A stretch of 64,000 nt of DNA from Niebla homalea. Lineage: Eukaryota; Ascomycota; Lecanoromycetes; Lecanorales; Ramalinaceae. A program made the position numbers and the translations under genes. Positions 46,968 to 62,569 of the stretch are shown one piece after another (within the stretch, counting starts at the first letter, position 1; each line of letters opens with the position of its first letter). Below the pieces are notes generated by a model, which was not told the DNA's origin, ran no database searches, and worked only from the letters and a program-made list of their open reading frames with translations. Location of the stretch: contig JAHGAU010000002.1 in NCBI GenBank assembly GCA_019925105.1, positions 868,001 through 932,000 of the forward strand, read 5' to 3'.

Positions 46968-47381
46968 ATCTTGCAGGAGGGAACGTCAATCTTCTTTCAA
47001 GTACTTTCCATATGAGGGGATCTCGGCAGTGACAGGAACGATTGCAACGTGGGCAGGGCAATGGGACCCAACACAACGATCCCTTGAAATAGTTGTCCGC
47101 TGTGGTTCATTACTGGATCATTGAGATCACTGGATTAGGAATGGCTCTAATACGAAGGATAGCTGACATCATGCAATACGGCTCTTTAGGCTTGATTCGT
47201 CCAGCGAAACGGGTGTGGTCACTGACTGCAACTGTTTGATAAGCCTGAAGCGTCTTATCGATAAGAGGCAGATATTCCCGTCACCCACGCACAACCACGC
47301 TCTTTTCCTCTGTTGAAACGCCAGATATGCTCAACCATGAAAAGATCCGAAGTCTTCGAATGGCAAAAAGAAGAACGCTTG
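46968..47381. other. Intergenic region between amidotransferase-like gene and tRNA-Thr
   Basis: 414 bp containing the promoter of the amidotransferase-like gene and, next to the tRNA, its presumed Pol III terminator. Nothing else recognised. Confidence 0.4.
47365..47369 (-). terminator. Pol III T-run terminator for tRNA-Thr
   Basis: Five consecutive T on the minus strand, 13 nt past the tRNA 3' end, the usual position and length for an RNA polymerase III stop in fungi. Confidence 0.6.
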
Positions 47382-47521
47382 TGCCTCCTGGCGGAATTGA
47401 ACCGCCGATCTTCGCATGACACCGTACAATCTACGAGTGCGACGCATTACTATCAAAATTCAGTTAATATGGATTCGTTGGCCTCAGAGGACCAACGACT
47501 TACCCACTGTGCCAAGAAGGC
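47382..47521 (-). tRNA. tRNA-Thr(CGT) with anticodon-loop intron and a D-loop insertion
   Basis: Acceptor arms GCCTTCT (from 47521) and AGGAGGC plus discriminator A (ends 47382) pair over 7 bp, one of them G-T. T arm: GGCGG/CCGCC around TTCAATT, which is also box B. Anticodon stem TCGCA/TGCGA closes a CTCGTAA loop, anticodon CGT (47435-47433). A 14-nt intron (47431-47418) sits one base 3' of the anticodon, the canonical place. The D arm is GCAC..ATGC (13-22 unpaired), and its loop is broken after AGTGG by 54 nt (47503-47450), starting GTAAGT and ending GATAG. Without both inserts the molecule is a regular 72-nt tRNA. Box A (TGGCACAGTGG) is complete before the insertion, so Pol III transcription is plausible. 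Alternatives: a pseudogene, or a very unusual second intron. Confidence 0.82.
47450..47503 (-). other. 54-nt intron-like insertion in the D-loop of tRNA-Thr
   Basis: Begins GTAAGT, contains TTAAC about 14 nt before the end and ends TAG, so it carries all three spliceosomal intron signals at the length usual for this genome. It also holds a stable hairpin (CGTTGG..CCAACG). Removing exactly these bases restores AGTGGTA as the D-loop. Whether it is spliced, and by what machinery, cannot be told from DNA. Confidence 0.7.
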
Positions 47522-47881
47522 CGCATTAGCACCACGAGCTCTATTTAATACTATATCTTTTTTCAATGTGGCTGAGAAGGGACTTTTGTTGCTAAATATG
47601 GTGGGGGTGGAGCTCTGTAGTGGCGTTGATTGGCGGAGACAGGCGCCCAGGCTTGTACCTGCATGTGTCATTGTTTTGTGCATGTTTGTTCAATTCACTA
47701 CCATCCACCTGTCTCATGGTGCGCCGACCTGATACAAAGGGCTTTCGCCTTTTTATGGGCGTCATCATTGTCCGCTTTGTTCAATACCTTCCCTAGGCCA
47801 AACCTACGAGCGCTATTAAACAATCACCTTGTGCCACCCTGCTGGGGCAGTCAATCAGTTGCACATACACGAGCGCCCAGC
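47522..47881. promoter_or_regulatory. Upstream region of tRNA-Thr and of the 363-residue hypothetical gene
   Basis: 360 bp between divergently oriented genes; must contain the promoter of the plus-strand gene. An open frame runs through (from 47630) in frame with the gene start but lacks a good earlier ATG context. Confidence 0.4.
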
Positions 47882-59674: not shown

Positions 59675-62134
59675 CTACCACCCCGGACCCTTTTCGTCCG
59701 CGGGCTTGGGCGTTTCTTCATCGAATGCTCCACGTTTAGATTCCCGAGGAGACTCAGTTGATGAGTCTCCCGTGGCAGGCGTGCCTTGCTCCATGGCCTT
59801 CTTCGTCCCAGCTTCGCGGTCAGCAGCTTCCTTAGGCTCCTCAGGATCAGTCGCCGTCATGTTGGGCATTTCTGTGTCCTTGTCATCACTTTTCTTCCCT
59901 GATGTAGCAGAATTCGAGTCAGCATTTCCTGATTGCCTATTAAGATGGTGTGCAGCTTCTGCCTTGGCAAATTCGGCATCCTCGGGTTTTAATACGTCCA
60001 TATCTGTCATCCCGTCTTTCCTTACGGGTAGGGAGGAAGCAGGCTTTGATTTGGCCGCTGCTGCGGGTGGTACTTCATCAGGGACATAGAAATCATACGG
60101 TTCGCCAACATGACAGAAGAGGTCAATGGCTTGGAAGTTCTTGTGTGCAGGAGGCGTCTCAGACCCCTGACAGCCTCCCACGGTACCCAAGAACTGCTTC
60201 GTAAAGGAGACCGCCTCGGCAAAGGAAGAGTCACGGTCGACTGGCTTTCCTTCAAACGTGATGTGAGGAACGTTGAGTAGTGCTGGAAAGTCGCCTTGGT
60301 TGGGGAGAAGAGATGTCAACGATGATTCTAGGAGAGGACGTTCGTCATTAGGAGGCGGCTTGCGAGACCCACTTGAGGGATTAGCTTCTAGAGGCTCGTC
60401 TGGTGAGATCTCAGGTACGGGAGGGTCTGAAGGCTCTGGGTCTTTTGAGAATTCCTCGGGGACTTGGTAGAGCTCATCATGGACTGTGCTAAGAGCGGAC
60501 TCGTTCGCCCACTCGCCGGGATACAAGAGCGAATAACCCCTCGCCCGCATGAGCTCAGACATGTACTCAAGCCAGGCAGGATGCTTGCTGCTCACAGCTT
60601 TCGGTGATCTGGAAGGAGGCTTCGTCAACCGCCCTGCCAGAAAAGAATGAAATTCTTTCCATTTGTCCCCAAAGTAGAGAGCAGCATTATTATTGGGTGA
60701 CTGCCACCGAAAGGGCGCCCCCTCTTCTTGCGCCCTTGACTTCAACTTGTCTTGTACGGGCGGAGTGAAGGGGGTAGTATCATTAAGGTATACCGTGGGC
60801 AGGTCGAGGCTGATGCCTATTAAACTATCGTCGTCTTTCGCTGCCTTCACGGCATGACTGGAGTATCTGAATTCCAAAACGCCGTAGAGAAGATAATGGT
60901 AATACAAAGGTGAAAGCTCGACTTGCGGCGAGAGCAAAAGTACATGCGAGTTGACAATTCTCTTTGGGTAGAAGGCTTCGACGAGCCTTGCAGACGCCTC
61001 CTCGGCCGATGTGGTCTTTCTCCGAACTCGGTGTCTGATGGTGACTTGAGAGGCATGCTGCGAGCCAGACCAGTCAATTGGCGGCCATACTATATTTTCA
61101 AGGTATTTCAATGTGGCAGCATCAGGGTCTTCAGGAAGCTCAATGGTCAAGTGGGGATAGTTTGCACCAAAGTAATCAGCATTCTCCAGAGATCTGAGAA
61201 GCCTCACGATTGAAGCCGACGAGCCCGAGGGCGGCTGTATGAGCACGTTGATGTTGATCATCGGCCATGCTGCAAGTGATGCGCTATCGAGCCGGGTGAT
61301 CCACATCAAGTTTTCCATTGCATTTGTGGGGAGCTCGATCAGAGACTTTGACATCTGAATCGTCGTGGATCTGACAGCATCGATGAAGAAGTCGTCCTCT
61401 CTATCGGGAGCGTCCACGAGAATGACTTGGGGATGGATGAAGTTTTGAATATGGTCCAAGCCTGCAGCGACACTGGATTGCATCCTTGAATCGGTGCTCC
61501 ACCGTGAGTAGTCCGGACGAGCGTCATGCCAATGGAGGGGGCACGCGTCCTCGGAGACGCCATTGAGCTGCCTGATCTCCTGTAGCTCCATCTCATCACG
61601 GCCCATGATTGCCATATGTACCTCATTCCGTTCCCACCTTACCATTTCGCACGCCAATGGCAGTATTTCTGACAGGCTCTTGAGGCTTGATGCAGCAAAC
61701 AGCACATTCTTGTTGAACTCTTTGGTCCCCCTTAGCTTAGCGGCGGCATGCAAGGTCATAGCCAGCTTGTAGAACTTAATTGGGCCATCGAAGTAGTGCT
61801 CTTCTGCTTCGGTGGGAGCAGCAGGCTTGGGGGGCTTCTTCCTGAGAGGGTCTGTCTGAGGTTTGACGAGCTTCGAATCGGGAGGCGTGAGTGGCTGAAT
61901 TCTCTTATCTGCCATCCGATAATGTGGGCCTACATCTGTAGGAATGTTTTTGATGAACAAGACGGCGAAGAGGAGCAAACCGATAAGGTACAGTATCCTC
62001 CTTTTTCTGACGGCGGGCGCAGGTTTTCGGACAGACCACGGCGCGGGCTGAGAAGAGCCATTGGGTCTGTGGTCATCATTCTTCTTGCCCATTTCTTCGT
62101 CGTCGGCAAAGAATCGCCCAGGCCAAGAAGACAT
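59675..62134 (-). CDS. Glycosyltransferase-2-like type II membrane protein, fungal
   Basis: Single exon, 819 aa. A short cytosolic N-terminus (residues 1-45, basic before the membrane) is followed by one membrane anchor (ILYLIGLLLFAVLFI, about 47-62) and a large luminal domain, a Golgi-type type II layout. The catalytic-like core has FNKNVLFAASSLKSLSEILPLACEM in two parts, EVHMAIMGRDEM, VILVDAPDREDDFF with an acidic DxE-like cluster, and MENLMWITRLDSASLAAWP. Later YFGANYPHLTIELPED and LLLSPQVELSPLYYHYLLYG match what I recall of proteins annotated 'glycosyltransferase 2' in filamentous fungi. The C-terminal 150 residues are Pro/Ser/Glu/Lys-rich and probably disordered. Sugar and acceptor are unknown. 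Divergent from MLH1. Confidence 0.75.
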   Translation of the reverse strand: MSSWPGRFFADDEEMGKKNDDHRPNGSSQPAPWSVRKPAPAVRKRRILYLIGLLLFAVLFIKNIPTDVGPHYRMADKRIQPLTPPDSKLVKPQTDPLRKKPPKPAAPTEAEEHYFDGPIKFYKLAMTLHAAAKLRGTKEFNKNVLFAASSLKSLSEILPLACEMVRWERNEVHMAIMGRDEMELQEIRQLNGVSEDACPLHWHDARPDYSRWSTDSRMQSSVAAGLDHIQNFIHPQVILVDAPDREDDFFIDAVRSTTIQMSKSLIELPTNAMENLMWITRLDSASLAAWPMININVLIQPPSGSSASIVRLLRSLENADYFGANYPHLTIELPEDPDAATLKYLENIVWPPIDWSGSQHASQVTIRHRVRRKTTSAEEASARLVEAFYPKRIVNSHVLLLSPQVELSPLYYHYLLYGVLEFRYSSHAVKAAKDDDSLIGISLDLPTVYLNDTTPFTPPVQDKLKSRAQEEGAPFRWQSPNNNAALYFGDKWKEFHSFLAGRLTKPPSRSPKAVSSKHPAWLEYMSELMRARGYSLLYPGEWANESALSTVHDELYQVPEEFSKDPEPSDPPVPEISPDEPLEANPSSGSRKPPPNDERPLLESSLTSLLPNQGDFPALLNVPHITFEGKPVDRDSSFAEAVSFTKQFLGTVGGCQGSETPPAHKNFQAIDLFCHVGEPYDFYVPDEVPPAAAAKSKPASSLPVRKDGMTDMDVLKPEDAEFAKAEAAHHLNRQSGNADSNSATSGKKSDDKDTEMPNMTATDPEEPKEAADREAGTKKAMEQGTPATGDSSTESPRESKRGAFDEETPKPADEKGPGW

Positions 62135-62569
62135 GCCTACTTGCCTACTTGCTACTTGTTCAGGGTGGTGTGACGAAAGGCTGTTCGGACTTTGGAATAC
62201 ATCGAGGCGACTTAGGGAAGCGCAGCTCAGCAGGCGCTGACATCCCTATCCAGTGGAGATGGCGTGCCTCAAGCTGGCGATTGTATGCGACAGAGCTCCC
62301 ATGATTGAAGGATGAGATTAAGCCAAGTCTTTTGCTTGACAGCATGGGATGATTTTAAGCCGCAACCCCCGCTTGGCATTTTGCTTTGGCTTTTCCTGGC
62401 AGGTGCCATAGGTATTCTAACAGGCACCATCCGCCCGAACCTAAGCAAGCGAGGAGGTCCCCACGGGCCCAGAATTGGGCGGAAGGGGCGTATCATCCCC
62501 TCCAAGACGCTTCCCCTTTTCCAACACCACTCGTCTCATGGAATTCCTGGAGCTTGTTTCATCGATATC
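62135..62569. promoter_or_regulatory. Divergent intergenic region, glycosyltransferase-like / MLH1
   Basis: 435 bp between divergent starts, presumed shared promoter. An open frame extends upstream from the MLH1 start (to 62312) but adds no family residues. Confidence 0.4.

Follow-up and report, generated by a model that had tools for sequence, protein, structure and literature searches.

How could a tRNA be made from a gene whose D-loop is interrupted by 54 nt that begin and end like a spliceosomal intron? The gene in question, tRNA-Thr(CGT), is the sole Rfam match at gathering thresholds in the 64-kb stretch of DNA analyzed here (the window). It matches the tRNA family RF00005 (cut-off 29 bits) over the full model, 1–71, with an E-value of 6.4e-5, and the surplus letters fall in the D-loop and the anticodon loop (Table 1). 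ARAGORN reported no tRNA at this locus, either in the window with the bacterial code or when the locus by itself (L001) was run under the standard code with introns permitted. The preliminary description had read this locus as a Thr(CGT) gene with a D-loop insert running from GTAAGT through TTAAC to TAG, and had predicted that a regular tRNA would remain once this insert and a 14-nt intron were taken out. Both points are confirmed: the two inserts lie where they were placed, and joining the exons yields a 72-nt molecule. The 14-nt intron contains ACG, complementary to the anticodon; introns of the endonuclease type usually hold such a triplet. A protein encoded at 59678-62245 of the window has Ramalina farinacea as its best named relative (84%), followed by Psora, Protoblastenia and Bacidia (52–55%). 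Judged by this one protein, the fungus is probably a lichen-forming ascomycete near Ramalina.

The reading that we put forward is that the Thr insert is very probably a U2-type intron in a nuclear Pol III tRNA gene, one of at least three such genes together with tRNA-Ser(TGA) and tRNA-Cys(GCA), and that it would be removed by the spliceosome.

Table 1. Positions of features in the window (rows with a strand) and at other loci of the same genome.
Feature	Position	Strand	Basis or remark
tRNA-Thr(CGT) gene, three exons	47382..47521	-	RF00005, 39.8 bits
Exon 1: 5' strands of the acceptor and the D-stem, and the D-loop up to G19	47504..47521	-	RF00005 and exon joining
D-loop insert of 54 nt (GTAAGT..TTAAC..TAG), a putative U2-type spliceosomal intron	47450..47503	-	sequence
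Putative 5' splice site GTAAGT	47498..47503	-	sequence
22-nt inverted repeat, hairpin CGTTGGTCC..GGCCAACG, within the Thr insert	47476..47497	-	sequence
Putative branch site TTAAC; its branch A, at 47464, precedes the intron end by 14 nt	47463..47467	-	motif scan
Putative 3' splice site TAG	47450..47452	-	sequence
Exon 2: remainder of D-arm, 5' strand of the anticodon stem, CGT anticodon, A37	47432..47449	-	RF00005 and exon joining
14-nt canonical anticodon-loop intron (tRNA endonuclease type)	47418..47431	-	RF00005 and exon joining
Exon 3: 3' strand of the anticodon stem, T arm, 3' strand of the acceptor	47382..47417	-	RF00005 and exon joining
A box TGGCACAGTGG, immediately upstream of the Thr insert	47504..47514	-	pattern and sequence
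B box GGTTCAATTCC of the Thr gene	47393..47403	-	pattern
T5 run, Pol III terminator-like, after 12 nt of 3' flank	47365..47369	-	sequence
TATTAAATA, TATA-like element, 21–29 nt upstream of the Thr gene	47542..47550	-	sequence; function inferred
tRNA-Ser(TGA) gene	G000:C1:1343713-1343875		51-nt D-loop insert and 31-nt anticodon-loop intron
Ser(TGA) insert GTACGC..CTAAC..CAG, 51 nt, after G15	G000:C1:1343728-1343778		
tRNA-Cys(GCA) gene	G000:C29:687297-687433		52-nt D-loop insert and 12-nt anticodon-loop intron
Cys(GCA) insert GTAAGC..GCTAAAC..CAG, 52 nt, after G18	G000:C29:687314-687365		
tRNA-shaped loci L077; L189	C1:476318-476538; C24:838356-838576		near copies of each other
tRNA-shaped locus L109	C3:1165760-1165980		
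tRNA-shaped locus L140	C7:54460-54680		
tRNA-shaped loci L164, L165	C9:1648685-1649468		
tRNA-shaped locus L167	C9:1848203-1848423		
tRNA-shaped locus L196	C31:449898-450118		
tRNA-shaped loci L199, L200	C36:73910-79029		

Cutting the Thr insert at its GT-AG boundaries leaves AGTGGTA as the D-loop, exactly the sequence that tRNA-Thr(AGT) of the same genome has there; over their whole length, the intron-free Thr(CGT) and Thr(AGT) agree in 51 of 72 columns. A cut one base upstream gives the identical product, making two product-equivalent cut pairs. The relaxed motif GTRNGY..YTRAH..YAG, at lengths of 48–57 nt, occurs 23 times in 1,278,950 in the window, the insert itself included, a rate of 1.8e-5 per position and length that serves as a guide, the motif class having been set post hoc after the three cases were seen. 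At this rate, the presence of the motif at one of the two equivalent cut pairs is not due to chance. The motif scan alone is powerless, however, since splice-like sets of 47–60 nt are no commoner in the window than in its reversed sequence (11 versus 12; the mean in shuffles is 8.4). The weight of the evidence lies in the position of the insert inside a tRNA and in its repetition in two other tRNA genes.

Indeed, the Ser(TGA) and Cys(GCA) genes carry D-loop inserts of the same kind. In standard numbering, as assigned here, the inserts follow position 19 in Thr, 15 in Ser, and 18 in Cys. Their 5' hexamers, GTAAGT, GTACGC, and GTAAGC, respectively, resemble GTRNGY, the general fungal consensus, which may not be the host's own. 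Each insert has a branch-like site, TTAAC, CTAAC, and CTAAA(C), at a distance of 14, 12, and 27 nt from its end, although the first and the last of these depart from the textbook form. The 3' sites (TAG, CAG, and CAG) and lengths (54, 51, and 52 nt) resemble those of the host's short introns. GT-AG removal leaves the D-loops AGTGGTTA in Ser and AGCGGTTA in Cys, and over its first 37 nt the insert-free Ser(TGA) shares 34 positions with Ser(AGA), including a stretch of 29 consecutive matches that spans the junction. With two, three, and four product-equivalent cuts for Thr, Ser, and Cys, the chance that all three inserts fit the motif is about 1e-13 at the rate above, again only a guide for a motif set post hoc. 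All three genes also have a canonical anticodon-loop intron, and many introns of this endonuclease kind are present in the host genome. Two other tRNA genes (L037 and L218, with anticodons that read TAT and CAC) have long introns of about 52–54 nt at the canonical position, near the length of the D-loop introns.

The genome searched comprises 50.57 Mb in 52 contigs, with the window at G000:C2:868001-932000. Of 2585 candidates in the RF00005 search of the genome, 63 were scored, and the Thr gene itself was not picked up; the tRNA census is thus incomplete. Rfam gives the Cys(GCA) gene 40.9 bits, while the Ser(TGA) gene is absent from the Rfam matches even at E-values up to 5; the regular tRNA-Glu of locus L132 was also left out by Rfam. 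We also scanned 170 B-box loci from a pattern listing for acceptor and T-arm pairing, and it was here that the Ser(TGA) and Cys(GCA) genes came to light; in this listing, the GGTTCAANYCC class is covered up to contig C8 only. Among 37 nuclear tRNA genes picked by eye, 34 have D-loops of 7–10 nt and three have D-loops of 59–61 nt; two of the 37 (L041 and L082) were read by eye as the script's first fit was wrong. Dropped from this count were contig C49, which holds a dense set of tRNAs and appears to be mitochondrial, the SINE-like loci L039, L045, and L047–L051, the tRNA-Trp-like L046 (with a D-loop of normal appearance), and the fragment L150, as were the ten tRNA-shaped loci of Table 1, in which 80–133 nt replace the anticodon arm and variable loop. 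To look for inserts at the Thr site in other tRNAs, a genome-wide pattern of an A box followed by GTRAGT was used; it gave six matches versus eight for the control, and the five loci other than Thr(CGT) could not be parsed as tRNAs.

How do these inserts compare with pre-mRNA introns of the same genome? An automatic intron finder based on reading frames returned a noisy set and was replaced by introns checked by homology. For the ProRS and TCP-1 alpha genes, alignment of the spliced exons to homologues of solved structure runs through the junction with no gap; the ProRS intron is 49 nt (2844-2892, GTGAAT..CTAAC..CAG) and the TCP-1 alpha intron is 47 nt (5986-5940, GTAGGG..GCTAAAC..TAG). The branch-like site of the Cys insert resembles the GCTAAAC of the latter. 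An intron in a SNF2-family gene is about 210 nt long and starts GTCAGT. This genome therefore does contain short introns that end in YAG and have a branch-like CTAAC or CTAAAC, although not all of its introns are short. None of the three 5' sites (GTGAAT, GTAGGG, and GTCAGT) fits GTRNGY, which slightly lowers our confidence in the spliceosomal reading. The comparison supports that reading; the host's own splice consensus and length range are not fixed by it.

The preliminary description had left three options open: a spliceosomal-type intron, an ectopic endonuclease-type intron, or a dead gene. The two additional GT-AG genes and the restoration of paralogue D-arms strongly favor the spliceosomal type. 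If the Sen complex instead cut the D-loop insert at a bulge-helix-bulge (BHB) motif, as in red-algal and nucleomorph tRNAs, there would be precedent in the D-arm introns known from Cyanidioschyzon merolae and nucleomorphs (PMC4090602), and the host's many anticodon-loop introns are of the endonuclease kind. Yet the D-loop inserts are not at 37/38, the canonical position for endonuclease introns, where the 14-nt Thr intron does sit. We checked the insert boundaries for a BHB fold, as had been proposed, and found no complete core at the cuts examined. Three of four central pairs form at the Thr cut displaced by -1 and at the unshifted (0) Ser cut, the best central score among the nine product-equivalent cuts of the three genes; the GT-AG cut of the Thr insert forms none of four, and a full central helix of four pairs is found at none of the 44 Thr cut pairs that leave a readable D-arm. 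A 53-nt Thr cut (TAAGTC..TAG, leaving the D-loop AGTGGGTA) does form three of four central and four of four inner pairs, but it lacks an outer helix and is equalled by 330 of 2000 shuffled inserts; the best relaxed BHB is at chance level. Moreover, endonuclease cleavage leaves the GTANGY starts, branch-like sites, YAG ends, and lengths of 51–54 nt unexplained. We consider this route highly unlikely. Still less credible, to the point of being barely tenable, is a DNA insertion that only mimics an intron, which the cell would either tolerate or eliminate by some unspecified route. GTAA does stand at both ends of the Thr insert, as in a target-site duplication of 4 nt flanking 49 nt. This parse, however, leaves the 8-nt D-loop AGTGGGTA, unlike that of the Thr(AGT) paralogue, the end repeats of the Ser and Cys inserts are merely 2 and 3 nt (AG and GGT), and the hairpin in the Thr insert is not a repeat family. 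An introner-like element was likewise rejected: the hairpin has no other copy in the genome at up to three mismatches, the 140-nt Thr locus matches itself alone at an E-value of 1e-3, and by eye the three inserts have no common sequence beyond the splice-like motifs.

Did the insertions simply inactivate the Thr, Ser, and Cys loci? Several points allow for it: tRNA debris does occur in this genome, in the form of a tRNA-Glu 3' fragment, and a tRNA-Thr(TGT), if present, could read ACG codons by wobble, so that the Thr(CGT) gene is not proven essential; no Thr(TGT) was found in the incomplete census. The debris is locus L150 (G000:C7:1283507-1283727), a tRNA-Glu(CTC)-like 3' fragment with its 5' half replaced, probably a tRNA pseudogene. 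Against inactivation, the stems, B boxes, and T-runs of the three D-loop-interrupted genes are intact; all cloverleaf arms are present along with A and B boxes, the A box being interrupted in Ser; the T-runs (T5, T6, and T6 in Thr, Ser, and Cys) begin 12, 21, and 3 nt after the gene; and AT-rich stretches lie upstream of all three. Restoration by a GT-AG cut in three of three insertions is unlike random damage. Cysteine has a single isoacceptor, GCA, so that if the assembly is complete and holds no diverged copy, the Cys gene must work and its insert must be removed. An intact, intron-free Thr(CGT) elsewhere, which together with a lack of reads from this locus had been named as the sign of a pseudogene, was not found by BLAST and two pattern searches of limited sensitivity. 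BLAST with the intron-free query found only the locus itself and missed even Thr(AGT); a 29-place pattern with three mismatches found Thr(AGT) in the genome and no other Thr(CGT); and a 14-place anticodon-arm pattern matched eight places in the genome, where only the window locus parsed as a tRNA. A joint query with intron-free Cys and Ser(TGA) turned up neither another Cys gene nor an intact copy of Ser(TGA), at a sensitivity that recovered the positive controls Ser(CGA), Ser(AGA), and Ser(GCT) at 79–85% identity and that more distant copies would escape. Short insertions in eukaryotic D- and T-arms are usually read as pseudogenes where synonymous copies exist (PMC4090602); here, searches of limited sensitivity found no synonymous intact copy, and the sole Cys gene found has the same feature. 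From the sequences, then, a dead gene is unlikely, and for all three loci to have been inactivated seems very improbable.

We favor removal of the D-loop inserts by the spliceosome, and a two-step pathway can be envisaged for the Thr precursor. Pol III would transcribe it from the A and B boxes to the T-run. The spliceosome would excise the D-loop intron (GTAAGT / TTAAC / TAG), leaving the D-loop AGTGGTA, and would so restore a D-arm that is needed both for the tRNA fold and by the Sen complex, in which Sen54 is reported to touch this arm (PMC4090602). Removal of the 14-nt anticodon-loop intron by the tRNA splicing endonuclease and ligase would then follow. Transcription, spliceosomal excision, the order of the two steps, and an origin by intron gain are all what we infer from the gene sequences. 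The suggestion that the insert sits where it preserves box A holds in part: in Thr the A box is intact and runs right up to the 5' splice site, and in Cys it is completed by the first G of the intron; in Ser, however, it is split after G15, such that there is no general rule.

To our knowledge, tRNA introns are held to be removed by the endonuclease and ligase pathway alone, and we know of no spliceosomal route for tRNA. Spliceosomal introns were reportedly described in ascomycete rDNA by Bhattacharya et al. in 2000. Like the D-loop inserts, they are short GT-AG introns in a non-mRNA gene of a lichen-forming lineage; unlike them, they lie in a Pol I transcript. Lichen fungi are reported to have an unusually high number of rDNA introns (PMC6652019). 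For a spliceosomal intron in a Pol III transcript, there is precedent in the U6 and U3 RNAs of fungi, which according to a 2017 paper are alone among small structured RNAs in being known to carry canonical GT-AG introns frequently (PMC5832005). The D-loop inserts resemble these fungal U6 snRNA and U3 snoRNA introns in being GT-AG introns of small structured Pol III RNAs, but here the host is a tRNA, and the same precursor also has an endonuclease-type intron. Both U6 copies of this genome are intronless, providing no parallel here. The D-arm introns of C. merolae and nucleomorphs share the site and often the presence of further introns in the same gene; those of C. merolae depend on a BHB, and those of G. 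theta are 3–24 nt long, with splicing given as unknown (PMC4090602). In contrast to both, the inserts of the lichen fungus have GT-AG ends and showed no complete BHB at the cuts examined. Canonical anticodon-loop introns differ from the D-loop inserts in lying at position 37/38 and in following no GT-AG rule. Among the open-access titles and abstract openings listed, a scope that leaves most of the subscription literature outside, there was no report of a spliceosomal intron in a tRNA gene.

If the spliceosomal reading is correct, tRNAs that depend on the spliceosome would extend the kinds of intron found in eukaryotic tRNA by one more, and a strongly self-folding Pol III precursor could serve as a spliceosome substrate. 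Intron gain would have occurred in genes of about 75 nt, where the fold of the tRNA allows the exact junction to be checked. The reading would also go some way to account for tRNAs overlooked by standard finders in such genomes (ARAGORN missed Thr, and Rfam omitted Ser), although Rfam left out the regular tRNA-Glu of L132 as well. We think it probable that this Ramalina-like lichen fungus cannot do without its spliceosome in tRNA maturation, that the only Cys gene found and at least two others would depend on it, with two unrelated splicing systems acting on each precursor, and that introns have spread into Pol III genes in parallel with those of lichen rDNA.

The search also brought up other tRNA-like loci. 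Ten tRNA-shaped genes have 80–133 nt in place of the anticodon arm and variable loop. They have B boxes, T-runs, D arms of 3–4 pairs, and T arms with five of five pairs; the acceptor has all seven pairs in seven of them, six in L167, and five in L165, and is out of register in L200. By eye, the sequences of the arms differ while the pairing is kept, and these genes may represent a new family of Pol III non-coding RNAs; at the gathering level, Rfam calls L109, L199, and L167 tRNA. The loci L039, L045, and L047–L051, on several contigs, form a degenerate tRNA-like family (AGGCTGTTAGTGTAACATGCAGCACGCCGGGCTCATAACCCGG...) with many differences of the C-to-T type, suggesting a SINE-like element, perhaps mutated by RIP. 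Six loci (L108, L130, L146, L169, L188, and L197) have near-identical GGTTCGATTCCTATTGGCGCT ends without a recognizable tRNA body, and are probably the tails of another tRNA-derived repeat. Finally, L222, L223, L225, and L228 are dispersed sequences that contain the tandem motif GGTTCGAGACCGGTTCGAGCCCGGTTCG.
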